From contig JACOTA010000016.1 in assembly GCA_016178585.1 (NCBI GenBank), positions 1 through 39,510 on the forward strand: a stretch of 39,510 nt of DNA, read 5' to 3'. The position numbers and the translations under genes are program-made. Shown piece by piece: positions 19,430-36,280 of this stretch. This DNA is from Nitrospirota bacterium. Its GTDB lineage: Bacteria; Nitrospirota; Nitrospiria; JACQBW01. Within the stretch, counting starts at the first letter, position 1; every line of letters begins with the position of its first letter. The notes beneath the pieces were generated by a model, which worked only from the letters and a program-made list of their open reading frames with translations, was not told the origin of the DNA and did no database searches.

Positions 19430-19540
19430 TTTCTCTCCAAATTTAAACCATCGACATCGGAATTCTTTATTTTCAGTAGATTTTTAATTAAAAATAATCA
19501 TAGCCCCTGTCTTGAATCGGTGTCAAGCCATTAAAGACTA

Positions 19541-19753
19541 TTGGGTGCATGACAAAATTATGAGATGACAAGCGTCTGCCGAGCCAGGAGCGGTTCCCCG
19601 GCACGCGCGGCTGCGCTTACGGTGCTCGCCGCCCTCCGCTTTTGTCTCGCCGCTGCAATCTGAACCCATTGATGCGGCGGCCAAAAGAGGGCCGTGTCAC
19701 CGCCCCAGGCCTCTGGCAGACAAGATTATCTCACAATTTTATCATGCACCAAA
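19541..19753. repeat. 213-bp non-coding element with about 50-bp imperfect terminal inverted repeats
   Basis: The left end (TTGGGTGCATGACAAAATTA from 19541) matches the inverted right end (TTTGGTGCATGATAAAATTG read from 19753), and the similarity continues through GTCTGCC and CCAGG/CCTGG for about 50 bp. The GC-rich core (about 19600-19710) has no ORF that I can support. It fills most of the gap between mrp and the oxidoreductase cassette. It is probably a MITE-like element or large REP. Confidence 0.65.
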
Positions 19754-19833
19754 GACTGTTTTGATCCGTCGTCGATAAGCAATTAAGGTACGATTTTTTT
19801 TCTGGAAGAGAAATAGGACAAGATTACAAAAAA

Positions 19834-20439
19834 TTACCGTTTTTTCATTTTAAGGACAGCCGTGATCAGTCTTTCCATTGTTTCCGGCGTGATATCCCGT
19901 ACCGTGATATTGGCCTCATCGTCTCCGGAGAAGGAACACATGGCGATGGTATAGCAGGAGGTTCCTGCCCGAATAATCTTGAGAGCGATATTGGCCTGGT
20001 GACAATGAACCCCGATAAAGAGACAAACATCAATTTTATTATGCCAGATGGTGAGATTGGGATGATTGGGATTAATCTCAATTTCCGGATAAACGCGAGG
20101 ATATTTGGGGCGATAGTCGGCCATTGGAATGATCTTGGCGGGTATCGCTTCGGCTAAACGTTTTGTCGCGGTGGCGAGTTTGGAGGCTTCCGGTTTCCAA
20201 TCCCACAGCACGGCAGGCCCGGGAAAGAGCGTCGGATGTTTTGCTGACAAAAGTTTTTTCGCCGCGGCTTCAATGGCCTGATCTTCACTGACAATTTCTC
20301 CCTCAACCAACCCCTGGCCCGGATCTGGCAGAACAACTCCGAGGGTAGCGGCAGCGGGAGAAAGGAATCCTTCCGGCCCCGGAAGCACCCGGTAGCGTTT
20401 TGATTCAACCTTTTCTTTTTGAATTTTTGTCGGACTCAT
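19834..20439 (-). CDS. Epsilon-type subunit of 2-oxoacid:ferredoxin oxidoreductase, paralogue 2 (often named CODH beta subunit-like)
   Basis: This 201-residue protein shares a long colinear core with the gene at 20850-21620: YRVLPGPEGFLSPAAA, GLVEGE, LFPGPAVLWDW, MADYRPKYP, HPNLTIWHNKIDVC, HCHQAN and GTSCYTIAMC. I recall this family as the fifth (epsilon) subunit of pyruvate or 2-oxoglutarate:ferredoxin oxidoreductases in reverse-TCA bacteria (Aquificota, Nitrospirota), and as 'carbon monoxide dehydrogenase beta subunit family' in databases. Conserved His and Cys suggest a metal or structural role, unproven. The start ATG 20439 was chosen for AAGGAG 8 nt upstream, which overlaps the previous stop. 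Confidence 0.7.
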   Translation of the reverse strand: MSPTKIQKEKVESKRYRVLPGPEGFLSPAAATLGVVLPDPGQGLVEGEIVSEDQAIEAAAKKLLSAKHPTLFPGPAVLWDWKPEASKLATATKRLAEAIPAKIIPMADYRPKYPRVYPEIEINPNHPNLTIWHNKIDVCLFIGVHCHQANIALKIIRAGTSCYTIAMCSFSGDDEANITVRDITPETMERLITAVLKMKKR

Positions 20440-20452
20440 TTTCTTATCTCCT

Positions 20453-20860
20453 TTAATTCCAGTCTTCTTTCTCAAATATATCTTCAGCCTTAATGGATCC
20501 GCCGGGAGGAGGGACTATCGTAACGGGGTTAAGCCCTGTAATCTCTCTAATCATCTTTGAAAGTAAAGCCGTTTCGGTTTCTTCTATCACGACAATTTTA
20601 CTCACCCTTCCCGCAAAAGCTTCAATAGCCTGAACCGGAAATGGCCATAGGCTTTTCAAATAAAGGGCGGCGGCGGGAAATTTAATCTTTCTAAAAAAAA
20701 GCATGGCTTCATAAACAGCCGATTGAGTTGATCTCCAGCTAATGAATCCAACTTCGGCCCGAAAGGGTTCATCCCCCTCCACAGGGCCAAGCCCCTCATT
20801 GATAAATTGAACCTCGTGTTGAATTTCGGGTAAAGAAAGGGTCCGATCTTTACTCTTCAT
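20453..20860 (-). CDS. Free-standing C-terminal domain of a 2-oxoacid:ferredoxin oxidoreductase alpha subunit
   Basis: The product is 135 residues. After about 25 N-terminal residues it reads AEVGFISWRSTQSAVYEA, LYLKSLWPFP, SKIVVIEETETALLSKMIRE and GLNPVTIVPPPGGSIKAEDI. That is the order of domain II of PorA/KorA (normal members read GWGST, LHLRYLNPFP, VVVEEN). The thiamine-pyrophosphate-contacting domain I is absent. The frame is open to 20935, but an 86-nt overlap with the upstream gene makes ATG 20860 (or 20875) more likely. It is either a truncated remnant or a genuine stand-alone module. Intact coupling to two epsilon-like genes favours a module. Confidence 0.65.
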   Translation of the reverse strand: MKSKDRTLSLPEIQHEVQFINEGLGPVEGDEPFRAEVGFISWRSTQSAVYEAMLFFRKIKFPAAALYLKSLWPFPVQAIEAFAGRVSKIVVIEETETALLSKMIREITGLNPVTIVPPPGGSIKAEDIFEKEDWN

Positions 20861-21620
20861 TCTCATCAATCCCATGTTCCAGATGATGTGAAAATCCAGG
20901 AGGGACTTCTTCCTCTTTCGACCCCGTGGAATCATGACGTAAAGCGTTCTCAGGCCGGATAACGAACATCTTCTTGTTGCTACAATGCCGAATCTCTTCC
21001 TTGCCTTCCCGCGTATAGGCCCATGGAATTATTTTGCCGCTATCCCGAACTTTAATAATGGTTTCCTTTAAACGGACAATTTTTTCAACATCACAAGGCC
21101 CCATGGCCGCAACCGAATCTTCATGAACATCATTTGCGCAAAGAGTGATCGTGTAACATTTTGTCCCCCCGCGGATCATTTTCAGAGTCACATTGACAAA
21201 ATGGCAATGAGCGTCAATCAGCATGCAAACTTCAATCTTGTTATGCCAGATGGTTAAATTGGGGTGGCAGGGACTAAAAACAGCTTCGGGATCGATTTTG
21301 GGATAAATAGGGCGGTAATCCGGCATACAAATAATTCTTGCGCCCGGAATTTCTCTTGCCATTTCCAGGACCGCTGTAGCTTTTTTCTGAGTCTCCGGGG
21401 TCCATGCCCATACCAGAAGAGGTCCGGGGAAAAGCGTCGGGTTTCTACGGGTTAATATTTTTTCCGCGATAACTTCCATCACTTTTTTTTCCGGAAGAGC
21501 TTCTCCTTCGACAAGGCCCATTCCAAGATCAGGGGGAAGAACTCCCATCAAGGCCGCCGCCGGAGGAAGAATACCTTCCGGGCCGGGAAGCACACGATAA
21601 CGTTTATCTTTGGTCGGCAT
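20850..21620 (-). CDS. Epsilon-type subunit of 2-oxoacid:ferredoxin oxidoreductase, paralogue 1 (long form)
   Basis: The protein has 256 residues. The core (YRVLPGPEGILPPAAA, LVEGEALPEKK, TLFPGPLLVWAW, MPDYRPIYPKIDPE, HPNLTIWHNKIEVCML, HCHFVNVTLKMIRGGTKC) is shared with the 201-residue paralogue. A C-terminal extension of about 75 residues (from about 180) is unique and ends in an acidic tail. It is the first gene of the cassette, with GGGAG about 10 nt before the ATG, and it overlaps the next start. No alpha domain I, beta, gamma or delta subunit is in the window, so the catalytic enzyme, if any, is elsewhere. Confidence 0.7.
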   Translation of the reverse strand: MPTKDKRYRVLPGPEGILPPAAALMGVLPPDLGMGLVEGEALPEKKVMEVIAEKILTRRNPTLFPGPLLVWAWTPETQKKATAVLEMAREIPGARIICMPDYRPIYPKIDPEAVFSPCHPNLTIWHNKIEVCMLIDAHCHFVNVTLKMIRGGTKCYTITLCANDVHEDSVAAMGPCDVEKIVRLKETIIKVRDSGKIIPWAYTREGKEEIRHCSNKKMFVIRPENALRHDSTGSKEEEVPPGFSHHLEHGIDENEE

Positions 21621-21775: not shown

Positions 21776-22106
21776 TTCATTAAGTTAATCCGAGAATAGC
21801 TCAGATTACTGATTACTACGCAAATAGAGTGCCAAAATCTTTTCATATAAGCGGTCAGTTGAAAATAATAAAAAAAACCAAATGAAATCAGGTGATTACA
21901 AAATAACTTGTTAAGAAAATGAATTTCCTTGAACCGTTAATTGATCTTGCCTAAAGCCGTAAAGGAGAAAACTTTGCAGGTGATTCAAGGGGGGCAACAG
22001 GAATATTTAAGAAAAAACACAAAAAACATATTTTTTTCAATAAGTTACAAAACTTCCGTTACAAAATAAGAACCTGCATTATTTGCTGGGGGGAGGACCC
22101 ATTAGA

Positions 22107-22830: not shown

Positions 22831-22894
22831 ATTGAAAGGTAAAAATACCTTATAAAGAGTGGAAGTACGAATCTTAATCTTCAAGACCGTAACT

Positions 22895-23005
22895 TCTGAT
22901 TTTATGATCGGCTCCCATGCGATTAAACAATCTGACCGGCTTTTAACCCGTGACCGTGGCTTTTATCGGAAATATTTTAAATCCTTAAATATTCTTAGAA
23001 TTTAA
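22895..23005 (+). pseudogene. C-terminal remnant of a VapC-type PIN toxin
   Basis: The plus-strand frame reads SDFMIGSHAIKQSDRLLTRD and then RGFYRKYFKSLNILRI-stop. That is the characteristic last part of the PIN ribonuclease partnered by AbrB-type VapB (family pattern DFLIGAHA..ADRLLTRDRGFYR.YF). The first three quarters, including the metal-binding acidic residues, are gone. It lies on the same strand as the intact antitoxin at 22309, so this was one vapBC operon. Confidence 0.7.
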
Positions 23006-23077
23006 GGGCAAATCTATTCTTATTGTTTGTTAAGAAGAAACCGAATCTGTTTATCTGAGAAGGCAGGGGTAATAAAA

Positions 23078-23500
23078 TTAAGTGTTCCAGGGATTATATA
23101 TTTTGACGCCAAGTCTTTCCATGTCCTGACTATTCCGTGTCACGACAACCAGGTGGTGAACTATTGCTGTCGCCGCAATAAGGCTGTCCATGAGGGGGAG
23201 CCGCATTCCGAGCCTTTCTAATTCACCCTGTTGTTTGCCCCATAGCAAAGCTGTTTGCAAATCAAAAGAAAGGATCCGATTGGAAAACCGTTCAATCAGA
23301 TCTTTTTCGACCCAGGTCTTTAATTTTTTTTTCCGATGAGAATCAGTCAGTTTGGCGATTCCTTTCTCCAATTCCCCGATGGTCAAGACACTGAGGCAAA
23401 TGAATTCTTCCTCTTGTTGCTCAATCCAATCTAAAACAACCTGGGCTGGATGTTTCTTCACCATTTCTGAAATAACACAGGTGTCAAAAAGATAGTTCAC
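23078..23500 (-). CDS. vapC: PIN-domain toxin (VapC-like ribonuclease)
   Basis: The protein has 140 residues. Metal-ligand acidic residues of the PIN fold are visible: D6 (NYLFDTCVISEM), E in ELEKGIAKL (about 43) and D in RLPLMDSLIAATA (about 104). The later T-R-N-x-x-D (VVTRNSQDM) is also present. Members cleave tRNA or other RNA when released from antitoxin. The gene overlaps the antitoxin stop by 4 nt (ATGA). It resembles the FitB-type branch. It appears intact. Confidence 0.92.
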   Translation of the reverse strand: MNYLFDTCVISEMVKKHPAQVVLDWIEQQEEEFICLSVLTIGELEKGIAKLTDSHRKKKLKTWVEKDLIERFSNRILSFDLQTALLWGKQQGELERLGMRLPLMDSLIAATAIVHHLVVVTRNSQDMERLGVKIYNPWNT

Positions 23501-23748
23501 AAATTGACCTCGCGAACCAATTCTTCACTTCTCTCCAAATCAAGTTCAACTCCACATAAAGGCGAATTTCTGAAAAATTCGGTGAGAGAGCGGGTCCGAT
23601 GAGTTAATTTCCGGTATTGCTCAATAGAAATTAACATGGCCGCGGGCTTTCCACGAAGGGTAATTGTCTGCGGCCCAGCGTGTACGGCCCTATCGACAAC
23701 CTGACTTAATTTATTTTTTGCTTCTTGAAGCTGCCATTCTGTTTTCAT
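23497..23748 (-). CDS. Phd/YefM-type antitoxin
   Basis: The protein has 83 residues from ATG 23748 (GGGGG upstream; the frame is open to 23760). The N-terminus MKTEWQLQEAKNKLSQVVDRA and TITLRGKPAAMLISIEQYRKL are the Phd/YefM signature. The C-terminal part (residues about 55-83) binds and blocks the PIN toxin next door. It likely represses its own promoter through the palindrome at 23769-23781. Confidence 0.92.
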   Translation of the reverse strand: MKTEWQLQEAKNKLSQVVDRAVHAGPQTITLRGKPAAMLISIEQYRKLTHRTRSLTEFFRNSPLCGVELDLERSEELVREVNL

Positions 23749-23768
23749 AATCGCCCCCAAAGAACAGG

Positions 23769-23818
23769 CTAGACTGTCTAGTTATGTAAATTGTAGACCA
23801 GAATTGATCAAGATGCAA
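23769..23818 (-). promoter_or_regulatory. Promoter and palindromic operator of the Phd/PIN operon
   Basis: On the minus strand TTGCAT (23813-23818) and TACAAT (23790-23795) are separated by 17 nt, with the start expected near 23783. Immediately after it lies CTAGACTGTCTAG (23769-23781), two perfect 6-bp arms around one base. The position suits repression by the antitoxin. Confidence 0.65.
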
Positions 23819-23841
23819 GAAACTTTACTATTGGATAGTAC

Positions 23842-25200
23842 TCAATCTTCAATACCGTAATTTTTGATTTTATAGTGGAGGGCGCGGAGGCTGATGCCAA
23901 GAATTTTCGCGGCTTTTTCCCGGTGATGCGTGATCTCAGAAAGCGTTTTTTGGATGACCTCTTTTTCAACCTCTTCAAGGGACTTTCCCAACGGAATTGT
24001 CATGGTTTTTTCCTTCGCCGTATCTTCCTGTATCTCCACCGGTAAATGTTCCGGTAAAAGGGTTTTATCTCTCACCATAATAACAACCCGTTCAATCACA
24101 TTTTTAAGTTGTCTGATATTCCCTGGCCAGGAGTAGTTGACCAATAACCGCATCGTTCCCGGAGATACCGTCTTTTCTTCCCTATGATAGATGGATCTAA
24201 ATTCTCGCAGAAAAAATTCAACCAATAAAGGAATATCCTCTTTTCGTTCCCGCAAAGGGGGAAGATGAATCGGCACAACGTTAAGACGATAATAGAGGTC
24301 TTCCCGAAAGGTCTTGTTTTCTATCGCCTGTAACAGGTTTCTATTGGTCGCGGCAATAAAACGGACATCCACATGAATGAGTTTTGTCCCTCCTAATCTT
24401 CTGAATTCTTTAGTTTCAAGCACGCGGAGAAAGTCCACCTGGTTTTTAAGGTTTAATTCCCCGATTTCATCAAGAAACAGAATCCCTCCGTCGGCCAGTT
24501 CAAAACGACCCGTTTTTGAAGAAACGGCCCCCGTAAAAGCGCCTTTTTCATAACCAAACACTTCGCTTTCAAACAATGTTTCCGGAAGCGCCCCGCAATT
24601 AATCGTGATAAACGGCTTATCCCTTCTTCCGCTTTGCTGATGAATGGCCCGGGCAACCAGCTCTTTTCCCGTTCCACTTTCACCGGTGATCAGAACCGTT
24701 GCGTCGCTTTCGACAACCTGATCAATCGTTTCATAGATCTGCTTCAGAACGTTGCTCTTCCCGATCATTTCTTCAAACCGGTTTTTGATCTTTAGACTTT
24801 CACGAAGCCGTTTGTTTTCCACCGAAAGAGATTGCCGTTCCAACGCCTTGTCGATTAAAAGAAGCAGGAGCTCTTTATCCACCGGCTTTGTCAGGTAGTC
24901 ATAAGCGCCGGCTTTTATGGCGTTGACGGCGGTTTCAATGGTCCCATACGCCGTCATGACGACAACCTCTGTTTCCGGAGAATGTTCCTTTACCTTTTTC
25001 AACAACTCCAGACCGTTGAGATCCGCCATTTTCAGGTCGGTAATCACCAGATGATAAAAAGCATTCTCAAGCCGTGAAAGCGCCACCTGTCCGTTTTCAG
25101 CGGTTTCGGGCTTGTATCCCTGTTTTTCTAAAATTTTTGCCAGAGCGGTTCGAATATTGACTTCATCATCGACAATCAAAATAGAGATCTGATTTTGCAT
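23842..25200 (-). CDS. Sigma-54-dependent response regulator (NtrC family)
   Basis: The protein has 452 residues. The receiver domain is 1-120, with D55 as phosphoacceptor (VITDLKM) and K near 106 (YLTKPVD). The AAA+ domain is about 145-375, with Walker A GESGTGKE, the sigma-54-contacting GAFTGA loop and Walker B GGILFLDEIGEL. The Fis-type HTH at the C-terminus is TLSEITHHREKAAKILGISLRALHYKI. It starts directly after the stop of the kinase gene and ends the complex operon. The likely target is the sigma-54-like site at 35433-35449 upstream of the operon, by inference. Confidence 0.95.
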   Translation of the reverse strand: MQNQISILIVDDEVNIRTALAKILEKQGYKPETAENGQVALSRLENAFYHLVITDLKMADLNGLELLKKVKEHSPETEVVVMTAYGTIETAVNAIKAGAYDYLTKPVDKELLLLLIDKALERQSLSVENKRLRESLKIKNRFEEMIGKSNVLKQIYETIDQVVESDATVLITGESGTGKELVARAIHQQSGRRDKPFITINCGALPETLFESEVFGYEKGAFTGAVSSKTGRFELADGGILFLDEIGELNLKNQVDFLRVLETKEFRRLGGTKLIHVDVRFIAATNRNLLQAIENKTFREDLYYRLNVVPIHLPPLRERKEDIPLLVEFFLREFRSIYHREEKTVSPGTMRLLVNYSWPGNIRQLKNVIERVVIMVRDKTLLPEHLPVEIQEDTAKEKTMTIPLGKSLEEVEKEVIQKTLSEITHHREKAAKILGISLRALHYKIKNYGIED

Positions 25201-26496
25201 TTAGCTCTTTTTCGCCTCCTCTTTATTCCTTACAGGAAGCTGGACGGTAAAAACAGTTCCGCTCCCTTCAACGCTTTCAACATGGATGAAGCCTCCATGA
25301 TCTTCAATGATCCGATGAGCAATGGCCAATCCCAGGCCTGTTCCTCCCTGCCGGGTACTGAAAAAAGGCTCGAATATTTTGTTTATTTTCACTCTGTCCA
25401 TCCCGGCGCCCGTATCGGAAAACCTGACATTGACCCATCTTTCACTGTTGATTTTGCGTTTTTCCGCTTGAATAAAAAGTTTTCCCCCGGCAGGCATTGC
25501 CTGAAGGGCGTTAATCATAATATTTAAAAATACCTGCGTCATTTGATTCTCATCGACAAGGATCAAAGGGAGACCGGGAAGAATATCTGTTTCAACTTCA
25601 ATTCCTTTTTCATGAGCTTCACCCCGGATAAGGGTCACCAGGTGTTGAAGGATCGGCTCCAATTTTACCTCTTCTAAAACCAATGGGTTGGGGATCGAAA
25701 AACGGGCAAAGCTGTCCAGAATACTCTTTAGCCTTTTAATTTCAATATTCAGAACATCAAGATACTCTCGAATGGTTGGAGTCGCTCCACGATTGAGCAA
25801 GATTTCTTCCTCCAGCAATCCCAGATTTAAATCCATCGCGCTTAAAGGATTACGAATTTCATGGGCCACAGCCGCCGAAAGGGTGCTGATGGCAGATAAC
25901 TTTTCTGATCGTCTGACCTGCTGTTCCAACCGGTTGATCTCGGAGATGTCCTTGACCAGGAGGACCAATCCCTCTCTTTTCCCTTCATTTTTGAGTTCGG
26001 ATAGCGTTACCCAGAGAACCAGTGTCTGATCCCCTTTGGGATATGTCACAGTCTGATCATGAAATAATCTTCCCTCTGCGAAAGCTTCTTCCAGGAGTTG
26101 TCCCAAACCCGTTGATTCCGGCAAAAAAAGCGTTAATTGTTTTCCCAAAGCTTCGTTCCCTAATAAAAGGATTTTATCCGCGGCTGGATTGATCGAGGTT
26201 ATTCTTCCCCGAGAATCAACCGTAATCACCCCGGTTGGAATACTTTCGAGAATGTTCCGGGTAAGGCTTTTGACACTTTCCAGGGTCCTTCGAACCGTAT
26301 GATAACTCTGATAGGTGCTGAAAACGGTGACACCTAAAACCGTTAAAAGAAAAAAAACCACAAGACCATATTTTTCCCGTTCAATTCGCAGGATCAGGAT
26401 AACGGAAACAACGACGACAAAAAACAGAAGAATGGAGATAATCAGTCGAGCCGGGAAATAGCCAAAAAGGGTTTGTTCTGGATTTGGCCGTAACAT
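25201..26496 (-). CDS. Membrane-bound PAS sensor histidine kinase (NtrB-like)
   Basis: The protein has 431 residues. Two transmembrane helices lie within 1-70 with almost no periplasmic loop, so it senses in or at the membrane or cytosol. A PAS domain (about 85-190: ILESIPTGVITVDSRGRITSINPAA) is followed by [20 protein letters not shown] with the phosphoacceptor His. The ATPase boxes are NIMINALQAMP, DTGAGM, FEPFFSTRQGG and TGLGLAIAHRII. It starts 3 nt after the small-subunit gene with AAGGAG inside that gene's end, so it is co-transcribed and tightly coupled. It may sense the complex's redox or energy state. Confidence 0.93.
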   Translation of the reverse strand: MLRPNPEQTLFGYFPARLIISILLFFVVVVSVILILRIEREKYGLVVFFLLTVLGVTVFSTYQSYHTVRRTLESVKSLTRNILESIPTGVITVDSRGRITSINPAADKILLLGNEALGKQLTLFLPESTGLGQLLEEAFAEGRLFHDQTVTYPKGDQTLVLWVTLSELKNEGKREGLVLLVKDISEINRLEQQVRRSEKLSAISTLSAAVAHEIRNPLSAMDLNLGLLEEEILLNRGATPTIREYLDVLNIEIKRLKSILDSFARFSIPNPLVLEEVKLEPILQHLVTLIRGEAHEKGIEVETDILPGLPLILVDENQMTQVFLNIMINALQAMPAGGKLFIQAEKRKINSERWVNVRFSDTGAGMDRVKINKIFEPFFSTRQGGTGLGLAIAHRIIEDHGGFIHVESVEGSGTVFTVQLPVRNKEEAKKS

Positions 26497-26499
26497 TTT

Positions 26500-27015
26500 C
26501 TACTCCTTTTTTCTCCGACCCAGGACAGTGAGCAGGGCATCGAGGATCTCGTTTGGCCGCGGTGGACAACCAGGAATTTTGACATCTACGGGAATATGCT
26601 TTTCGACGGGACCGGTCACGGCATAACTGTTTTTAAATATCCCGCAGTCAATGGCACAATCCCCAAGGGCAACGATTAACCTCGGTTCCGGTGTTGAGCG
26701 ATAGGCATCTTTCAAGGGTTTCTCCATATTAAACGTTACAGGACCTGTAACCGCCAGGGCATCGGCATGCCTTGGCGAGGCGGTAATATGGATGCCGAAC
26801 CGCTCCGCGTCATAAATCGGATTCATTAAGGCATTCATCTCCATCTCACAGCCATTACAGGAACCGGTATCCACCTCCCGGATCGAAAGCGACCGGTGAA
26901 ACAATTTGGCCTTGCTCCGCGTGGCGTCAGAAACCTCAGGAGCAGGCACGGAAGATTCAGGGTATTGGCCGGTGACCCGGCCCTTTTTCAAACTCTTTTT
27001 GATGATTCGGAACAT
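26500..27015 (-). CDS. hyfI: Ehr/Hyf small subunit (NuoB/HycG family)
   Basis: This 171-residue peripheral subunit holds the proximal [4Fe-4S] (N2-type) cluster. The ligands are visible: C53 and C56 (GSCNGCEME), C120 in LGDCAIDCG and C150 in IPGCPPRP. The frame is open to 27054, but ATG 27015 has GGGAG 8 nt upstream. The cluster site is intact, in contrast to the lost NiFe site of the large subunit, so the complex can still carry electrons. It lies 70 nt downstream of the large-subunit gene. Confidence 0.93.
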   Translation of the reverse strand: MFRIIKKSLKKGRVTGQYPESSVPAPEVSDATRSKAKLFHRSLSIREVDTGSCNGCEMEMNALMNPIYDAERFGIHITASPRHADALAVTGPVTFNMEKPLKDAYRSTPEPRLIVALGDCAIDCGIFKNSYAVTGPVEKHIPVDVKIPGCPPRPNEILDALLTVLGRRKKE

Positions 27016-27085
27016 AATGTTTCTCCCACAAAGCTTGCTCGCGAACGTTCCCACAGCGAAGTTATGTTTTTAAAAAAATGAGTCC

Positions 27086-28678
27086 TTATAAATCGTTTCC
27101 CGCGTAGGATAGATTAAAACTCTTGTTGATCAGCGGAAAATCCGGAATAATATTGCCGGGGGCAACATCCTGCAGGACCGGCCAATTGACAAAAGAGGGA
27201 TCCCTGACCTTGCACCGGTGAATCCGTCCATTCTCCCCCGCCATGACAAAATAGAGGATTTCTCCACGCCAGCCCTCAACCGCGGAGAGAGCCCATCTCC
27301 CTCTGGTTGCAGAAGAAATTGCTTCAATATAGGTCGGCCCTTTTGGAATCCGCCCGCACACCTGTCTTATGATAGAGATCGCTTCATGGATTTCATCGAC
27401 ACGCACTCGGACTCTCGCCCGGACATCGCCGTACTGGTACACAGGAACCTTTAAATTCAAGTGGCGGTATGCCGCGAAAGGATGATCTCTCCGGATATCC
27501 CGGTTGATATTCGAGGATCTTCCCGCCACGCCAACAACCCCATAGTCCCTGGCCGTTTGCTCTTTCAGGATCCCTGTGGTCTCCAGACGATCGATGAGGG
27601 AAGCGTTACTGAAAAGAAGGTCCGTCAGCTCTTTAAAGTCTTCCTCTATTTTGGCCAAACCGGCAAGAATCCCGTCGAGTTGAGAGGAATCCAGGTCCAC
27701 CGCCACTCCGCCAACCCGGTTAACGCCCCGAAGAAAACGGTGACCCGCCAGTCGGTCAAGCATTTGCATGATTTGTTCTTTCATTTGATTGCAATGCGCC
27801 AGCGCCAGCGAATAAGCCGCATCACTACAGATCGCTCCGACATCGCCGATGTGGTTATGAAGCCGTTCCAGCTCCAGAAAAAGTGTCCTGAGGTATTCAG
27901 CACGCGGAGGAATCTCAACAGACAGAAGAGATTCGACTGCCTGACAGTAACAGAGGCTATGACCAAAGGACGTGTCTCCGGAAACCTTTTCCGCGAGGGA
28001 TACCCCGTTGATCAGAGATAAATTCTCGAAAAGTTTTTCAATTCCCCGATGCTTCCAGAAAAGCCGAATCTCAAGCTGCATGATTGGTTCTCCGGCCACC
28101 GAAAATCGAAAATGTCCCGGTTCAATGATCCCGGCATGGATCGGTCCGACCGGAACTTCAAAAACTCCTTCTCCCTCGATATGCCGATAGGCATAGGTCC
28201 CTTCCCTCCGTTCCAAAACGGTATTCCAGGGAAAATCCTTTTTTAACGGATGTGTCCCCCTGGGCCAGTGTTCATGGCGTACCAGCCGGCGCAGGTCCGG
28301 ATGTCCAACCGGAATGAGGCCAATCATATCCCGTATTTCACGTTCGTACCATTTGGCCGCGTGGATTCGCGGTGTGATGGAAGGAAACAGCCGGTCTTCT
28401 TCCAGAAGATCGATAGCCAGGATCAGCCAATGCCCACCCGACTCCAGCGAAAAAAGATAGTAAACCCGGCAAACCGGCTTTATCGGGTTTAGATCTGCCG
28501 CCCATTGCAAGGATAAGGTTCCCCGCAGGGAAGGGGTCTTGTAAACATAGGTGGCGATTTCAAGAATATCCTCTTTTTCAAAATAGAAAACAGGGATCCC
28601 CTGGATTTGCTCCAAATCAAGAATCTGATCTTTGAAGGTCTTAACCATTTCTTGCACAATTTCGTTCAGATTATCCAT
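27086..28678 (-). CDS. hyfG: Ehr/Hyf large subunit, NuoC-NuoD fusion without NiFe ligands
   Basis: The protein has 530 residues. Residues about 1-165 are the NuoC/30-kDa-like part (HAAKWYEREIRDMIGLIPVGHPDLRR), and about 170-530 the NuoD/hydrogenase large-subunit part (GPIHAGIIEPGHFRF, FWKHRGIEK). Where hydrogenases have C-G-x-C near this point it reads EKVSGDTSFGHS, giving S233 and T236. The C-terminal D-P-C-x-x-C is replaced by SFNLSYAGNDL, giving S524 and G527. It therefore cannot bind a NiFe centre. This matches the Ehr (energy-converting hydrogenase-related) class and not a true group 4 hydrogenase. The electron acceptor or quinone is unknown. Confidence 0.93.
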   Translation of the reverse strand: MDNLNEIVQEMVKTFKDQILDLEQIQGIPVFYFEKEDILEIATYVYKTPSLRGTLSLQWAADLNPIKPVCRVYYLFSLESGGHWLILAIDLLEEDRLFPSITPRIHAAKWYEREIRDMIGLIPVGHPDLRRLVRHEHWPRGTHPLKKDFPWNTVLERREGTYAYRHIEGEGVFEVPVGPIHAGIIEPGHFRFSVAGEPIMQLEIRLFWKHRGIEKLFENLSLINGVSLAEKVSGDTSFGHSLCYCQAVESLLSVEIPPRAEYLRTLFLELERLHNHIGDVGAICSDAAYSLALAHCNQMKEQIMQMLDRLAGHRFLRGVNRVGGVAVDLDSSQLDGILAGLAKIEEDFKELTDLLFSNASLIDRLETTGILKEQTARDYGVVGVAGRSSNINRDIRRDHPFAAYRHLNLKVPVYQYGDVRARVRVRVDEIHEAISIIRQVCGRIPKGPTYIEAISSATRGRWALSAVEGWRGEILYFVMAGENGRIHRCKVRDPSFVNWPVLQDVAPGNIIPDFPLINKSFNLSYAGNDL

Positions 28679-30212
28679 GATTGACTCCGGTTAAAATGGC
28701 CACGACCTGCATCATCAGTTCCCTGAGGGAGTTCGGAATCCACAATCCCATCACCCCAATGGCCGCGATACTTAAGATAAGGGGAACATGGGAGATACTC
28801 CATTTTTCTTCGCGGGCGGTTTTATCGGAAGGTTCCCCCCAGATCATTCCCGTCACCCGGACCATAAAACCGCCGAACACCACGATACTGACCAGCAGGA
28901 ATAGAACGACAAAAACAAGGTTGCGCATTTCATCAGAAACCATAATTGTCATAAAATGCCCCAGACGCATGGTATCACTTTTGTAGACCTGCGAGGCCAA
29001 CGCGGACACTACGGAAAATTCGCTTGCAAACAGGGCAAAAGGGGGCATCCCCACCAGGGCAAAGCCTGCGGTTAGAAAGGCAACCGCGGTCATGGGTTGT
29101 GCCTTCGCCAATCCCTGAACCTTATCCATCTCACGCGACCCAAAAGAAAGGTGAATATTCCCCGCCGCAAAAAAAGCCAAAGACTTGGCAATCGCATGAT
29201 TGAGAAGATGAAACAGAGCCCCGAAACTTCCCACGAAACCCCCTACGCCGAAGCCAATGGCTGCGATCCCCATGTGTTCAATACTTGAATACGCCAGAAG
29301 CCTCTTAAAATCCCGCTGGATCAGAATAAACACCGCCGCTACGCCAAATGAGAAAAATCCGAAAACGATCAAGAGATGGCCGGCATAGCTGGAAGAATCC
29401 ACAGCATCCACAATCATCTTACTCCGTAATACCGCATAAAATGCAACCGTTTCAAGAACTCCCGAAAGCATGGCAGATACGGGAGCCGGAGCCTCGCTGT
29501 AGGCCTCGGGAACCCAGGTATGCATGGGGACCCAGCCGATCTTGGTGCCGTATCCAATCAGAATAAAGATAAAAGCAAGTTTGATCACATGAGGATCTAA
29601 TTGACCGGCAACCCGAATCAGTTCTGAAATGTTGAGGGCCGCGCCGACGTCCCCCAGGGCCCTTACGGAGGAGAGAAACATCAAAACCGTCCCGAACAGG
29701 GCTAACGCGATGCCCACCGAGCAAAGGATCAGATATTTCCATCCGGCCTCAAGTGAAGATTTCCGCTTGAAGAAATTAATCAGAAGCGTCGTCGCCAATG
29801 TCGTGCCCTCAATGGCCACCCAGAGGATGCCAAGATTATTGGCGAGAAGGGCAAGAATCATCGTAAACATAAACAGATGAAAGAGAAAAAAGTACCGGCT
29901 CATCCGCTTCGGAGTCACATTCCCCCGGATCAGATGTTGATCCAGATACGACCAGGCGTAAAGAGACGAAGTAAACCCGATCGCTGTAACGATCATGAGA
30001 ACAAACGCCGTAAGAGCATCCACCGCAATGAAGTCGTTGAAGAGCAAAAACGACCCCTCGCGTAAAAGGCGCACCGTCAACAGGGACTGAGCGCCTCCCA
30101 ATAGAAGAATCGTTGTCAGGTTAACGCCGTGAAGGATCCTGGGAGATCTTAATCCCAGGCTTAGAAAGCCTGCGACCAGGGGCGAGATCAAGAGGATGGC
30201 TATCGGGATCAT
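28671..30212 (-). CDS. hyfF: Antiporter-like membrane subunit 2 (HyfF/NuoN-type)
   Basis: The protein has 513 residues and about 14 transmembrane helices. It has the conserved core of Mrp/NuoN ion-translocating subunits: GYGTKIGWVPMHTWVPEAYS with SEAPAPVSAMLSGVLE, and FKRLLAYSSIEHMGIAAIGFGVG with the following HLLNHAIAKSLAFF. The Lys and Glu in these motifs are expected to carry protons or ions. It is a paralogue of the next upstream gene (tandem duplication), overlapping it by 4 nt and the large-subunit gene by 8 nt. Confidence 0.92.
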   Translation of the reverse strand: MIPIAILLISPLVAGFLSLGLRSPRILHGVNLTTILLLGGAQSLLTVRLLREGSFLLFNDFIAVDALTAFVLMIVTAIGFTSSLYAWSYLDQHLIRGNVTPKRMSRYFFLFHLFMFTMILALLANNLGILWVAIEGTTLATTLLINFFKRKSSLEAGWKYLILCSVGIALALFGTVLMFLSSVRALGDVGAALNISELIRVAGQLDPHVIKLAFIFILIGYGTKIGWVPMHTWVPEAYSEAPAPVSAMLSGVLETVAFYAVLRSKMIVDAVDSSSYAGHLLIVFGFFSFGVAAVFILIQRDFKRLLAYSSIEHMGIAAIGFGVGGFVGSFGALFHLLNHAIAKSLAFFAAGNIHLSFGSREMDKVQGLAKAQPMTAVAFLTAGFALVGMPPFALFASEFSVVSALASQVYKSDTMRLGHFMTIMVSDEMRNLVFVVLFLLVSIVVFGGFMVRVTGMIWGEPSDKTAREEKWSISHVPLILSIAAIGVMGLWIPNSLRELMMQVVAILTGVNHG

Positions 30213-31672
30213 GGAATTTCAATCCTCGGTCCAAAGAGCCCGGTCGCCGGAATAAAAATGGCCCGCAAAAAATTGGGCATATAAAGCCCTCCGTAAAAAA
30301 TAGCCGCAAGATTAATTAAAAGAGCTGTGGTCGTAAAACGAAGGGTTCGATCGTTGAGCGGGGCGTCCGGCGCCATCGGTCCCCCTAAAACCATCCCTGA
30401 AATATGATAAATCACCGCTCCAAAAGCGAGGATGAGAAAAGCCAAAAATAGATAAGTCAGCATCGGGTACCTGGCGTAGGAAGAGGTCGCAATCAGAACC
30501 TCGCTTACAAATAAGCCGGATGGCGGCATGCCGGCCAAACCCATGGCCGCAAGAAGCAGACTCAAACCCGCCAGCGGCATTTGTCTCAGCAGACCCGTAA
30601 TACGCTCCATTATTTTGTGGCGGTGCTTTAGCAGAACGATTCCCGCCGCATAAAATGCTGTTGACTTGACCAGGGAATGGTTGAGCATATGGAAAAGTCC
30701 GCCAAAAATCCCAACAGGTCCGCCTACGCCAAAACCCACCATGGCAATTCCAACATGTTCAATGCTCGAGTATGCTAAAAGCCGTTTGTAATCCTGTTGA
30801 ATCAACATGAAGAATGCGGCCACGATGAGAGAAAGCAGGCCAAACCCGAGCATTAAAGGTCCGGTGAAGCCTCCGCTGATGGTCTGATCTGTAATGCTCT
30901 TGAAACGGAGTAACGCATATAAACCCACATTCAACATCAACCCGGAGAGCATCGCGCTGACCGGTGTGGGCGCTTCCGCGTGAGCATCCGGTAACCACGT
31001 GTGCATGGGCGCCAGACCTGCCTTGGTCCCGTACCCTGTCAAAATGAAGATGAAGGCTAATTTCAAAGCGGCCGGGTTCAGATCCGGCGAAACCCGATAC
31101 AAAGCCTTCCAGCTTAAAGCCTCCATACCAACCCCCAAAACCTGCTCCGATGCGTAATACACCAAAACCGTCCCAAATAAGGACAATGCAATACCGATGA
31201 AACTCAAGATAATGTATTTCCATCCCGCCTCCAGGGCGTTTTTTGTCCGCTCAAACCCAACGAGGAGAGCCGCCGAAAGGGTTGAGCCTTCGATACTGAT
31301 CCACATTAAGGCGATGTTGTCCAGGTTCACAGTCAGGAGGATTGCGAAGAGAAAAAAGTCGAAAAAGAAAAAAAACCGACCATAGTGTTTAAGCTTCAAG
31401 TCCCCCCGGACCAGTTTTTCGCCCATGTAACCGACGGCATAGACCAGACCCGTCCCGCCCACAAAGGCTAGCATCAGATCCATCAATGCGCTCAAAGGGT
31501 CCGTCCGTAACAGGATGCCTATCGAAACATCGGAGCCCGAGGCAACTCCGCTGACGACTGCGGCCATGGCCCCCCATAGAACAACAGCAAGGAGACACTG
31601 GAGCCGCTCCAGGGCTCGTTGCGTGGGCATCACCAGGCTCAGAAATCCAGCCGCCAATGGCATGACAATCAA
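30209..31672 (-). CDS. hyfF: Antiporter-like membrane subunit 1 (HyfF/NuoN-type)
   Basis: The protein has 487 residues and about 14 transmembrane helices. The motifs GYGTKAGLAPMHTWLPDAHA, EAPTPVSAMLSG, YKRLLAYSSIEHVGIAMVGF and HMLNHSLVKSTAFY match its downstream paralogue and the HyfF family. The start given is TTG 31672. A CTG at 31693 lies 7 nt after AAGGAG (which overlaps the HyfE end) and would add LSLPLLI, making a better first helix, so the true start may be that rare codon. Confidence 0.9.
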   Translation of the reverse strand: MIVMPLAAGFLSLVMPTQRALERLQCLLAVVLWGAMAAVVSGVASGSDVSIGILLRTDPLSALMDLMLAFVGGTGLVYAVGYMGEKLVRGDLKLKHYGRFFFFFDFFLFAILLTVNLDNIALMWISIEGSTLSAALLVGFERTKNALEAGWKYIILSFIGIALSLFGTVLVYYASEQVLGVGMEALSWKALYRVSPDLNPAALKLAFIFILTGYGTKAGLAPMHTWLPDAHAEAPTPVSAMLSGLMLNVGLYALLRFKSITDQTISGGFTGPLMLGFGLLSLIVAAFFMLIQQDYKRLLAYSSIEHVGIAMVGFGVGGPVGIFGGLFHMLNHSLVKSTAFYAAGIVLLKHRHKIMERITGLLRQMPLAGLSLLLAAMGLAGMPPSGLFVSEVLIATSSYARYPMLTYLFLAFLILAFGAVIYHISGMVLGGPMAPDAPLNDRTLRFTTTALLINLAAIFYGGLYMPNFLRAIFIPATGLFGPRIEIP

Positions 31673-31697
31673 GATCAGAAGCGGAAGCGACAGAGGT

Positions 31698-32366
31698 TTA
31701 CTCCTTCATTCCTGTGAGTTTACTGACATCCACGCTGTCGAAAGCATCCTTGAGCCGATGGGTGTAGATTCCAATAATCAGGCCGGCTACCAAAACATCG
31801 AAGAAAACACCGAGTTCCACGATGAGCGGCATGCCGTAGGCCGCTGCGGTCGCCCCCAAAAATATTCCGTTTTCCACGACCAGAAAACCAACAACCTGCG
31901 TCACCGCCTTTCGCCGGGAAATCATGGTAAAGAAACCAATCAGGATAATCGCCAGGGCTATGGCAAGAGAATCTTTGGTCAGGAGGAATCCTAGCTCTTT
32001 AATCGGCTGTGTAACGGAGAGGGCTAAAATGACCAGCGCCCCGCTGATGATGAGCGACGCGGGAATATTGATGTTTAAGACCAGCTCGCGGGTCACATTC
32101 AGGCGTTCAATAACCCTCTTTAAGATCAGCGGGATAATGATGGCCTTAATGAGAATCGTAAGAAGCGCGGCCACATAAATGTGATCGATGCCTGTTAAAA
32201 AAGCCACAACGGCCGCGGTTAGGGCAAGAAACACCGACTGCAAAGCGAAGAGATCCACACAGGCGGAAAGTCTTCGTTGTGAAACAATGGCAAAGGTCGT
32301 CACCAAAAGGAGCATCGAGCAGATATTGACGATCTGGGACCCTAAGTCTGGATGAGCGACATTCAA
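31698..32366 (-). CDS. hyfE: HyfE-like membrane subunit (NuoK-related)
   Basis: The protein has 222 residues and about seven transmembrane helices. The C-terminal half (KAVTQVVGFLVVENGIFLGA, then PLIVELGVFFDVLVAGLIIG) is typical of HyfE, with Glu residues in helices corresponding to the NuoK proton path. It starts 2 nt after the HyfC-like stop, so it is co-translated. No NuoJ-like gene is present, as in hydrogenase-4 type complexes. Confidence 0.9.
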   Translation of the reverse strand: MNVAHPDLGSQIVNICSMLLLVTTFAIVSQRRLSACVDLFALQSVFLALTAAVVAFLTGIDHIYVAALLTILIKAIIIPLILKRVIERLNVTRELVLNINIPASLIISGALVILALSVTQPIKELGFLLTKDSLAIALAIILIGFFTMISRRKAVTQVVGFLVVENGIFLGATAAAYGMPLIVELGVFFDVLVAGLIIGIYTHRLKDAFDSVDVSKLTGMKE

Positions 32367-32368
32367 CT

Positions 32369-33319
32369 TTACACCCTCAAAATATAGTAGAAGATAAGAG
32401 AAAGGAGAGACAAAATAAACGCGACTCCCAGCAATTCTGTAATCCGAAATAAACGAAGTTTGGCAAACATGGATTCAATCACACTGACAAGGACGGCAAG
32501 CCCTGAAACCTTTAATAACCACGCGGCTGTTCCCAAGACCATCCCAAGAGGATTCATCTCCGTCGCAATCCCCCATGGAACGAAAATATTACTCAGGAGG
32601 GTCAGAAACAGAAGAAGTTTCAAAGCCGAGGCCCATTCGATCAGAGCGAGATAGCGGCCTGAATATTCGAGGATCATGGCTTCATGAATCATTGTCAGTT
32701 CAAGGTGCGTCGCGGGATTGTCCACCGGAACGCGGCCGGTCTCGGCCAGGGTCACAATGAACAACGCCGCCAGAGCCAGCAGATGCGGCGGTGGATCGGA
32801 CATGATTCCGTGGGAGAGAGCCATTTTATGGACAATCGTGCTTAAGTTCGTGGACCCGGCGGTCAGTCCTACCGCGAAAATAGAAAGGATCGTCGCGGGT
32901 TCTGTCAACGCCGCCACAATCGCTTCCCGGCTGCTTCCCATCCCTCCAAAGGATGATCCGGCATCCAGGCCGGCCAGCATGAGGAAAAACGTTCCAAGCG
33001 CTAACAGGTAGACCACCGTGATGATGTCCCCGGCAAAGTTAAAAGGGACTTGCGATAGAAAGGTGGGCACCAGCAGACTGGCTGTGAGGGTGGAGGAAAA
33101 GAGGATATAGGGTGTCGCGGTGAAAATCCAGGAAGTATAAGACGAGACCACAATCTCCTTTTGGAACAGCTTGGACAGGTCATAATAAGGCTGAATCAAA
33201 CCGGGGCCCCGACGGCATTGGAGCCGCGCTTTTACCTTGCGAATAAGCCCGACCACAAAAGGTGAAACAAGGAGAACCACAACAGCCTGCAGGATCGCAA
33301 TGACAACAATTTTGATCAT
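32369..33319 (-). CDS. hyfC: HyfC/HycD-like membrane subunit (NuoH-related)
   Basis: The protein has 316 residues and eight predicted transmembrane helices. The loops RRGPGLIQPYYDLSKLFQKE, GMGSSREAIVAALTEPA and VDNPATHLELTMIHEAM are the NuoH/HycD signature that forms the docking and quinone-chamber side in complex I. This is the subunit that couples the soluble arm (small and large subunits) to the antiporter-like chain. Confidence 0.93.
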   Translation of the reverse strand: MIKIVVIAILQAVVVLLVSPFVVGLIRKVKARLQCRRGPGLIQPYYDLSKLFQKEIVVSSYTSWIFTATPYILFSSTLTASLLVPTFLSQVPFNFAGDIITVVYLLALGTFFLMLAGLDAGSSFGGMGSSREAIVAALTEPATILSIFAVGLTAGSTNLSTIVHKMALSHGIMSDPPPHLLALAALFIVTLAETGRVPVDNPATHLELTMIHEAMILEYSGRYLALIEWASALKLLLFLTLLSNIFVPWGIATEMNPLGMVLGTAAWLLKVSGLAVLVSVIESMFAKLRLFRITELLGVAFILSLLSLIFYYILRV

Positions 33320-33337
33320 AGAATCCTCAACATGGAC

Positions 33338-35389
33338 TCACCTGGCCCACAAAAGGAGTGCGATCAGGGTCAGAAAAATGTAGGAAAGATAAAGGTGCAG
33401 GCTCCCGGCCTGAATGACCCGGAAACGGCCGGCAACTGCCAGCAAAACCCGGACAACAGGATCATAAAGATATCTCTGAAATACCGGCTGAAAAGACAAT
33501 TCAAACCGCTTCCGCCTGGCAAAATAACGGGATTCCTCCATCATTTCCGCTTCAAGTTTAACCGTCGGCCGGTAGATCATGCTGAAGATTTGGCGAATCG
33601 GCTGAACAAAACCGGTAGAGGTATATTCATTTCTGGGTTTCAGGTTTAAACCACAGCCCCATGTCCTGTAAAAACGTTTCCGAACCCGGCCGCTCAGCGC
33701 CACGATAAGGAGGAGGGTTAGAGGAATCAGTAATCCCATGATCAATGCCAGGGCAGGGGTCGAAATACTGGCGAATTTTACTCCCATCGGTTCCACAGTC
33801 CACCCACCACCGGTGATCACTTTATTCGCGATTGAAATATGGGTGAATGGGGCGATAACCCGGTCCAGGACTGGAACGACCAGCATGGGAACCAGCCCAA
33901 GAATCACACAGTAGGCCGCCATGATTCCCATTCCAATCCGCATCACCACCGGCACCTCGGCAGCTTGTTTGGCATGAGGACTCCGGGGCATTGCCAAAAA
34001 ACTGATTCCAAACGCTTTTGCAAAACAAGCCATGGCTAACGCTCCCGTAAGCGCCAGCATGGCCGCTCCGATGGGGAGAAAAATTTTCATCAGAAGATCG
34101 GGAATCTGAAAACTAAGAAACAGGCTCTGAAAAGTCAGCCATTCACTGATAAAACCATTGCTGGGGGGGAGACCCGAAATGGACACCGCACCGATTAAAA
34201 AGAAGAGAGCGGTCCAGGGCATCTTACGAATCAAACCTCCATACTCCTCCATATTTCGGGTATGGGTACTGTACAACAATGATCCGGCTCCAAGGAAAAG
34301 GAGTCCTTTGAACATCGCATGATTGATCGTGTGATAAAGACCGGCCAAAAGCCCCAACGCAGCCAAATGAGACAGGCCATAAGACTGAAAAATCATCCCG
34401 GCGCCGATGCCCAGCAGGATGATTCCGATGTTTTCAACACTATGATAGGCAAGAAGACTCTTGAGGTCATGTTCCATCAAGGCATACATCACACCCAGCA
34501 GGGCCGAGACCGCACCCACAACCAGGATGGTAAATCCCCACCACCATGGAAACTGGCCGCCGAGTAAATCAAAATAGACCCTGACCAGTCCATAAATCGC
34601 TGTCTTAATCATCACTCCGGACATCAGCGCTGAAACATGGGAGGGAGCCGCAGGATGGGCATAAGGGAGCCAAACATGCAAAGGCACGATCCCGGCTTTT
34701 GTGCCAAAACCTACCAGGGCGGTCAGAAATACCAATGTTCGAATCGTCTGGGGAATTGCCAGCCCGGAAGACCGAAAAGCCTCAAAAGCAAAACTTCCAC
34801 TCTGTTGATAAAACAGCAGGAAGCAAATCATAATAAAGACCGTACCGACATGGGTCATCACGAGATAAAAGAAGCCTGCATAACGGGTTTCAGCCTTTTC
34901 ATGCTCGGTCACCACCAGGAAATAGGAGACAAGGGACATCATCTCCCAAAGGATCAGAAATAAAAAACCGTTATCCGCCATGACGACAAGCGTCATAGAA
35001 AGAACGAAAGCGTTGTAAAGGCCGCCTATTAACCCGACTGGATAGCGTCCTTCGTACTCGCGCACATATCCCACGGCGTATAATGATACTGGAAAGGACG
35101 ATAGGGATATTAAAAGAACAAAAAAGGACGATAGAGTATCCAGCCTGAACTGGATCGAAAAAAGCGGCAGAGTAGACGGGCTATAAAAAACCAGCGGGGA
35201 ATTTGCAAATAGGCCTAAAACACCTAAAACGATACCTGCGGCTGATGCCGACATTGCGGCCCCATGGGCGACCAGGTTTTGGAAACGAGGCTGTCGAGGA
35301 AAAAAGAACGGAATAAGAATTCCAGCCCCATAGAGGGCAAGGACGATAAGGAAATTCCCGTGTATTAGAGAAAATAAATCAAAATTCAT
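33338..35389 (-). CDS. hyfB: HyfB-like membrane subunit (NuoL/MrpA-related)
   Basis: The protein has 683 residues and about 16 transmembrane helices. GFGTKAGIVPLHVWLPYAHP, PSHVSALMSGVMIKTAIYG, MEHDLKSLLAYHSVENIGII and LYHTINHAMFKGLLFLGAG are the antiporter-like signature. The C-terminus (RKRFYRTWGCGLNLKPRNEYTS, then PTVKLEAEM) is typical of HyfB/HycC and not NuoL. It is the first gene of the operon and has a poor Shine-Dalgarno. Together with the two HyfF-like subunits the complex has three antiporter-like pumps. Confidence 0.93.
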   Translation of the reverse strand: MNFDLFSLIHGNFLIVLALYGAGILIPFFFPRQPRFQNLVAHGAAMSASAAGIVLGVLGLFANSPLVFYSPSTLPLFSIQFRLDTLSSFFVLLISLSSFPVSLYAVGYVREYEGRYPVGLIGGLYNAFVLSMTLVVMADNGFLFLILWEMMSLVSYFLVVTEHEKAETRYAGFFYLVMTHVGTVFIMICFLLFYQQSGSFAFEAFRSSGLAIPQTIRTLVFLTALVGFGTKAGIVPLHVWLPYAHPAAPSHVSALMSGVMIKTAIYGLVRVYFDLLGGQFPWWWGFTILVVGAVSALLGVMYALMEHDLKSLLAYHSVENIGIILLGIGAGMIFQSYGLSHLAALGLLAGLYHTINHAMFKGLLFLGAGSLLYSTHTRNMEEYGGLIRKMPWTALFFLIGAVSISGLPPSNGFISEWLTFQSLFLSFQIPDLLMKIFLPIGAAMLALTGALAMACFAKAFGISFLAMPRSPHAKQAAEVPVVMRIGMGIMAAYCVILGLVPMLVVPVLDRVIAPFTHISIANKVITGGGWTVEPMGVKFASISTPALALIMGLLIPLTLLLIVALSGRVRKRFYRTWGCGLNLKPRNEYTSTGFVQPIRQIFSMIYRPTVKLEAEMMEESRYFARRKRFELSFQPVFQRYLYDPVVRVLLAVAGRFRVIQAGSLHLYLSYIFLTLIALLLWAR

Positions 35390-35651: not shown

Positions 35652-35936
35652 CTAAGCCGCTATCAATTGTTTAGTCTTGAGCTTTTTTCGGTTTTTTTTA
35701 AGTTTCCAGAGATCGTATTGCGCCTGATGGTCAAGCCAGCTTTCAGGTGTTGTTCTAAATACCATTGAAATTCGCATGGCCATTTCAGGGCTTATTCCGA
35801 TGTGACCATGCACAAGCTCTGATAACGTCTTTCGGCTGACACCTAAAGCCACGGCCACCTCCGTGATGGAAAAACCTAATGGTTTAATGTAGAGTTCTTT
35901 TAAAACTTCTCCAGGATGGGGCGGATTATACATCAT
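35652..35936 (-). CDS. higA: HigA-type antitoxin (XRE family)
   Basis: The protein has 94 residues. [20 protein letters not shown] is the HigA start. The HTH is [34 protein letters not shown], followed by [20 protein letters not shown], a diagnostic HigA ending. It is encoded 12 nt after the toxin, the reverse order (toxin first) typical of higBA. It binds and neutralises HigB and represses the operon. Confidence 0.95.
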
Positions 35937-35948
35937 GGTTCATCTCCT

Positions 35949-36227
35949 TTAATGATAATCTAAATAATCGATATCCGTACTGTTTTGTTGTTCAAACCTA
36001 AAAATCACCCGCCAGTTTCCACTTACTCTGACAGACCAAAAACCTTTGAACTCTCCCATCAATTTATGAAGCTCCAAACCGGGCGCATCCATATCGCCAG
36101 GATCTTTGGCCGTATTAAGCCTGATCAGTATAAGACGAAGACGTTTTACATGTTCGGGTAGTATCCCGGACTTTTTCCCTGTACGAAAAAACTGTTCCAA
36201 ACCTTTATGGCGGAAGCGGATGATCAT
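35949..36227 (-). CDS. higB: HigB-type toxin (RelE superfamily mRNA interferase)
   Basis: The protein has 92 residues from ATG 36227. It shows MIIRFRHKGLEQFFRTGKKS, GDMDAPGLELHKLMGEFKGF and WSVRVSGNWRVIFRFE, the HigB core with the conserved basic and His residues of the active surface, and a YLDYH end. The frame can begin at a TTG at 36266, but that lies in the -35 box, so it was rejected. Little Shine-Dalgarno is visible. Confidence 0.94.
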   Translation of the reverse strand: MIIRFRHKGLEQFFRTGKKSGILPEHVKRLRLILIRLNTAKDPGDMDAPGLELHKLMGEFKGFWSVRVSGNWRVIFRFEQQNSTDIDYLDYH

Positions 36228-36236
36228 TATTTTTAG

Positions 36237-36280
36237 AGTGTAACTAATCAGGTGATACACTGTCAATAGTGTTGTAACAC
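36237..36280 (-). promoter_or_regulatory. higBA promoter and operator
   Basis: On the minus strand a perfect TTGACA (36261-36266) is followed after 18 nt by TACACT (36237-36242). An inverted repeat ACACT-6-AGTGT (36257-36272) covers the -35 box and is flanked by further GTG/CAC pairs to 36280. This suits repression by HigA. The predicted start lies within a few nt of the higB ATG, suggesting a nearly leaderless mRNA. Confidence 0.6.

Follow-up and report, generated by a model that had tools for sequence, protein, structure and literature searches.

Positions 19834-21620 of the 39,510-nucleotide stretch of Nitrospirota DNA analysed here (the window) are filled exactly by three minus-strand open reading frames, which constitute the remnant of a 2-oxoacid:ferredoxin oxidoreductase (OFOR) that has lost its catalytic core. 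The trio arose by internal loss within a cluster of the fused KorAB/OAFO type. We favor, at a probability of about 0.5, a reading in which the remnant has been kept as a docking or electron-entry adaptor for the nearby Ehr (energy-converting hydrogenase-related) complex under the control of NtrBC. All parts belong to known families; we found neither their combination nor the stepwise loss of catalysis described in the open-access literature.

The trio comprises two delta-type (CODH/ACS-epsilon-like) OFOR subunits, eps1 (20850-21620, minus strand, 256 aa) and eps2 (19834-20439, minus strand, 201 aa from its ATG), on either side of a stand-alone OFOR alpha domain II (20453-20860, minus strand, 135 aa). 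A preliminary description of this DNA had recognized the gene order and the paralogy of the flanking genes, which are 50% identical, but had called them epsilon-type; in the literature on five-subunit OFORs the CODH-epsilon-like subunit is named delta, and epsilon denotes the ferredoxin (Aquifex) (PMC10052474). The same source terms the role of this delta subunit intriguing, and none is known for it in five-subunit POR/OGOR (PMC10052474). The good ribosome sites ascribed to the trio hold for eps1 and eps2, which have good Shine-Dalgarno sequences (AGAAGGGAG and AAAGGAGAT); the domain II gene lacks a clear one, its coupling to eps1 being by an 11-nt overlap of its start with the end of eps1.

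Both flanking proteins match the Pfam family CO_dh (PF02552; eps1 at 1.9e-28, eps2 at 3.7e-40). This family includes the delta subunits of the five-subunit POR/OGOR of Aquifex and Hydrogenobacter, also reported in Nitrospira, and the identity of eps1 and eps2 to POR-linked delta members of the class is 50-60%. Unlike those subunits, eps1 and eps2 are encoded outside an OFOR cluster, with paralogues of both lineages side by side near NtrBC and Ehr. The CODH/ACS epsilon subunit (CdhB) shares their Pfam family and fold, but only ~16% identity. It was found by fold comparison only, the best fold matches of the eps1 model (mean pLDDT 79, 130 residues of at least 90) being the CODH/ACS epsilon chains 9c0s_C and 3cf4_G; when eps1, eps2 or their profile was searched against PDB sequences, no match was obtained. 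A CODH/ACS subunit was rejected as an identity for these proteins since the CODH catalytic family (PF03063) has no match in the genome. An invariant H-C-H (eps1 residues 138-140) and two cysteines (155 and 161) are present in 52 of 52 aligned delta proteins; in the modelled fold these residues sit at strand ends and may form a metal or cofactor site. A plasmid search with eps1 and an Rfam search over 16000-36500 gave no match. Between eps2 and mrp there is a GC-rich stretch (19533-19761) with 34-nt inverted repeats (82%) at its ends that resembles a small non-autonomous mobile element.

The assignment of the 135-residue protein to PFOR domain II, made initially from the letters of the sequence, was borne out by profile and by fold. 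The protein matches PFOR_II (PF17147) at 1.3e-6, above the curated cut-off, as well as the last 114 positions of the OAFO_sf model (TIGR03710) at 4.3e-13, and its PDB profile match is the OGOR alpha subunit 6n2n from Magnetococcus (7.7e-40), to which its AF2 model (mean pLDDT 82) aligns with a TM of 0.75 and an rmsd of 1.6 A. It is equivalent to the C-terminal domain II of the fused gamma-alpha subunit of KorAB/OAFO-type OFORs. Alpha domain I (POR_N), with its YPITP and TSGPG motifs, is absent from the protein. As the preliminary description had also stated, there are no catalytic subunits around the trio: the window contains no gamma, TPP-domain or beta gene, whereas intact versions are present in the same slot in families f4 and f7.

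Comparison of this locus among relatives provides a well supported history. Sister families carry a complete OFOR (fused gamma-alpha and TPP-binding beta) together with two delta genes next to Ehr, usually with NtrB/NtrC. For example, the order is eps1, gamma-alpha, beta, eps2, Ehr in two f4 genomes (G119 and G203), with POR, POR_N and PFOR_II domains in the gamma-alpha of G119 and TPP_enzyme_C in its beta; in two f7 genomes (G207 and G208) it is gamma-alpha, beta, eps, eps2, Ehr, again a complete OFOR. Ten genomes of f2, a family whose reported Ehr, POR and OGOR content suggests that it is Nitrospira-like, have a pseudo-gamma-alpha of ~480-540 aa (G077, G060, G108, G097, G246, G145, G233, G127, G236 and G070). 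Domain II and a degenerate gamma part persist in this protein, the YPITP/TSGPG region of the TPP domain is lost, and there is no beta gene alongside. The same trio as in the window is found in G199, a member of the window's own family f1 (eps1 84%, domain II 50-55%, eps2 89-90%), while in G198 domain II is lost and eps1 and eps2 are adjacent, ~60 bp apart. Most other f2 genomes retain Ehr, often with NtrBC, after the delta genes and the core are gone. The comparison thus strongly supports loss of the core in steps, from an intact enzyme, to a pseudo-gamma-alpha without TPP domain or beta, to domain II alone (the window and G199), and finally to nothing. As a side observation, many f2 Ehr loci (for example L073:10715-10999 and L076:8800-9078) have a 92-94-aa protein without a Pfam match preceding the pseudo-gamma-alpha, and this protein is often still next to Ehr where the delta genes and the core have gone.

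Phylogenetic analysis places domain II of the window and of G199 in one clade (100/99) inside the Ehr-linked gamma-alphas (98/98). Its neighbors there are the f2 pseudo-gamma-alphas (90/95), and it is separate from other-class OFORs and PorA. The highest raw identities of domain II are instead to the intact f7 enzymes (45-51%), so that f1 and f2 may have lost the core either once or twice. A C-terminal DIF-x2-E (DIFxxE) motif is common to domain II and the Ehr-linked gamma-alphas. Eps1 falls in a clade with POR-type delta (100/98) and eps2 in a 17-row clade made up of Ehr-linked genes only (100/99), sister to OGOR-type delta; the module therefore holds one delta of each lineage. It had been foreseen that relatives might reveal the trio as the eroded end of a full porABGDE cluster. 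Full gamma-alpha and beta genes are indeed present in the same slot in other families, which makes the trio a reduced form of a cluster, but an eroded porABGDE end was rejected because the tree groups domain II with the fused gamma-alphas of Ehr loci and not with PorA. The earlier proposal of an adaptor built from oxidoreductase parts survives to the extent that the module is non-catalytic, consists of OFOR parts, and is constrained as protein, which makes an adaptor role reasonable; its de novo construction was rejected given the complete cluster in sister families.

Going upstream from the trio, the minus strand carries NtrC, NtrB and then a seven-gene complex I-like, group-4-hydrogenase-like operon. 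The NtrC-type response regulator (23842-25200, minus; PF00158 at 4e-73, PF00072, PF02954) has a sigma54 activation domain, and the adjoining gene codes for an NtrB-type PAS histidine kinase (25201-26496, minus; PF02518, PF00512, PF00989). The operon itself, with all genes on the minus strand, codes for a NuoB/HycG-like small subunit (26500-27054; PF01058 at 1e-33; cluster cysteines C66, C69, C133 and C163) whose true start is probably at an internal ATG, a NuoCD/HycE-like large subunit (27086-28678; PF00346, PF00329), two antiporter-like subunits (28671-30212 and 30209-31672; both PF00361), a subunit without a Pfam match that is HyfE-like by position and conserved there in relatives (31698-32366), a NuoH/HyfC-like subunit (32369-33319; PF00146), and a HyfB/NuoL-like subunit (33338-35389; PF00361) that is present in 66 of 147 class genomes. 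A group 4 NiFe hydrogenase was rejected since both CxxC ligand motifs are missing from the large subunit, which has VSGDTSFGHS and RDPSFVNW in their place. Because this subunit is without any NiFe ligand, the complex (26500-35389) is Ehr, group-4-like and lacking NiFe ligands as described (PMC10284858, PMC12342949). Ehr, a complex of unknown function, has been reported in hot-spring comammox Nitrospira (PMC10284858, PMC12342949) and in roughly half of the genomes of Nitrospirales (PMC12342949). These Nitrospira papers propose no partner enzyme (PMC10284858, PMC12342949), whereas here its neighbors are an OFOR-derived module and NtrBC; in other lineages formate dehydrogenase has been proposed as partner (PMC6349859). 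No gene for a NuoI-like ferredoxin subunit was seen in the operon.

The Ehr operon is 5 kb from the trio, with NtrBC and a toxin-antitoxin insertion in between. This PIN/PhdYeFM pair (23078-23760, between ntrC and eps1) is flanked by a 33-bp direct repeat, 88% identical (22873-23873), of which one copy is the ntrC 3' end, and thus looks like an insertion at that end. A HigB-like toxin and a helix-turn-helix antitoxin are also found just upstream of the Ehr operon (35652-36266).

A sigma54-type -24/-12 element (TGGCACTCTATTTGC, 21820-21834, minus) lies ~200 nt upstream of eps1. It is the single perfect match to TGGCAC-N5-TTGC in the window, where 0.05 are expected, and only such a perfect match is counted here because a scan allowing two mismatches performed no better than chance. 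In G127 a perfect element precedes eps1 by 89 nt, and several other relatives have near-perfect elements between NtrC and the next gene. With an upstream -24/-12 element and a nearby sigma54 activator, the trio has the sequence features of a sigma54/NtrC operon, and the element is a putative promoter.

In related families the locus beside Ehr still codes for two delta subunits, a fused gamma-alpha and a TPP/FeS beta; in the window gamma, the TPP domain and beta have been lost, and domain II persists as a separate gene flanked by the delta genes. We propose that NtrB and NtrC switch the trio on through the putative sigma54 promoter, after which both delta proteins would assemble with domain II into a small soluble complex. 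This complex could dock on the peripheral arm of Ehr, the operon of which is without a NuoI-like ferredoxin subunit, and act as an adaptor, or as a port of electron entry, linking Ehr to a soluble low-potential partner. Candidates for this partner are ferredoxin and the housekeeping POR/OGOR, whose own delta subunits are homologous to eps1 and eps2. The data show the homology, the history, the neighborhood, the constraint on the three proteins and the loss of the catalytic parts. The physical complex, its docking on Ehr, the transfer of electrons and its direction, and control by this particular NtrBC pair are elements that we infer. The adaptor reading draws on the history of the slot, the place of domain II in the tree, the purifying selection, the perfect sigma54 element with a sigma54-type NtrC nearby, and the missing NiFe ligands of Ehr. 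It is further favored because no NuoI-like subunit is seen in the Ehr operon and because G199 has a delta pair directly upstream of Ehr. Of the 49 Ehr loci for which 5 kb or more of upstream sequence is available, 14 have delta genes beside Ehr and 30 have NtrC. These G199 genes, one POR-type and one OGOR-type, stand side by side (L068:8244-9660, G199:C16) on a different contig from POR and OGOR.

Several observations count against the adaptor reading. In G108, which is 98% complete, NtrBC, the two delta genes and the pseudo-gamma-alpha are all retained, and Ehr was not found in its genome. No delta gene is nearby in 35 of the 49 Ehr loci, so Ehr has no general need of the module. Additionally, G198 is without domain II, domain II evolves fast, and NtrBC and the toxin-antitoxin genes separate the trio from Ehr.

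The strongest competing explanation, which we regard as possible though unlikely, has eps1 and eps2 supplying the delta subunits of the housekeeping POR and OGOR, with domain II as a passenger. This 2.45-Mb genome, 96% complete, contains one POR (C13:36-40 kb) and one OGOR-like second cluster (C13:17-20 kb), both on a different contig from the trio, and three delta genes in all, of which the only one besides eps1 and eps2 stands alone at C13:30852. The OGOR cluster is without a delta gene, eps1 branches with POR delta, and eps2 is sister to OGOR delta; what makes the rival attractive is that the genome is one delta short. However, this count comes from an assembly that is only 96% complete, eps2 belongs to a clade of its own among Ehr-linked genes, most module-bearing genomes also keep the canonical delta pair, and neither the retention of domain II nor the NtrBC/Ehr neighborhood is accounted for. 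The lone POR-type delta gene (L004:8853-10775, G000:C13) falls ~48 residues short of its homologue in G199 and lies ~5 kb from porABG, followed by integrase-like fragments. As for catalytic subunits elsewhere, neither an alpha nor a beta of the OAFO type turned up outside the window, the TPP-binding beta proteins there being those of POR/OGOR only (26-29%), so the genome offers the trio no catalytic partner of matching type.

Less probable still is that the trio is a decaying relic, an OFOR without function whose accessory genes linger before deletion. Such decay would fit f2, where most Ehr loci have lost both the delta genes and the core completely, as well as G198, which has lost domain II, and G070 and G202, in which delta or gamma-alpha genes are broken. 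The constraint on the three proteins argues otherwise. Between the window and G199 (NG86), dN/dS for domain II is 0.41/1.57, and for eps1 and eps2 dN is 0.06-0.11 over a near-saturated dS. When the same substitutions were placed at random in domain II (2000 replicates), identical residues numbered 43.8 +/- 3.8 (largest of 2000, 57) as opposed to the 68 observed, and every replicate contained a stop codon. The substitution pattern clearly indicates purifying selection on domain II, which has nevertheless evolved at several times the rate of the delta genes, both of which are strongly constrained. The frames are open in two genera, and the overlap and ribosome sites are conserved.

The earlier suggestion, taken as an adaptor that arose de novo or a factor that assembles the reverse-TCA enzymes, is very improbable: the delta relationship to POR/OGOR and the presence of an ATP-citrate lyase domain, POR and OGOR in the genome speak for it, but the module is missing from many class relatives that have POR and OGOR delta genes, the trio is on another contig than POR/OGOR and related to a complete OFOR locus, and its conserved neighbors are NtrBC and Ehr, which the earlier description did not mention. 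Nothing specific supports an assembly role.

A broader proposal, which we consider doubtful, is that Nitrospirota Ehr is a membrane partner of 2-oxoacid:ferredoxin chemistry in which delta and decatalysed alpha proteins dock POR/OGOR or ferredoxin. The supply of low-potential ferredoxin for CO2 fixation in Nitrospira is still hypothetical (PMC6606698). If such a partnership holds, proton-motive force would be coupled directly to low-potential electrons for CO2 fixation, and both Ehr and the enigmatic delta subunits would be accounted for. A hollowed OFOR that keeps its delta subunits beside NtrBC, and often Ehr, ties the questions of Ehr, delta and ferredoxin together and names proteins with which they can be tested.
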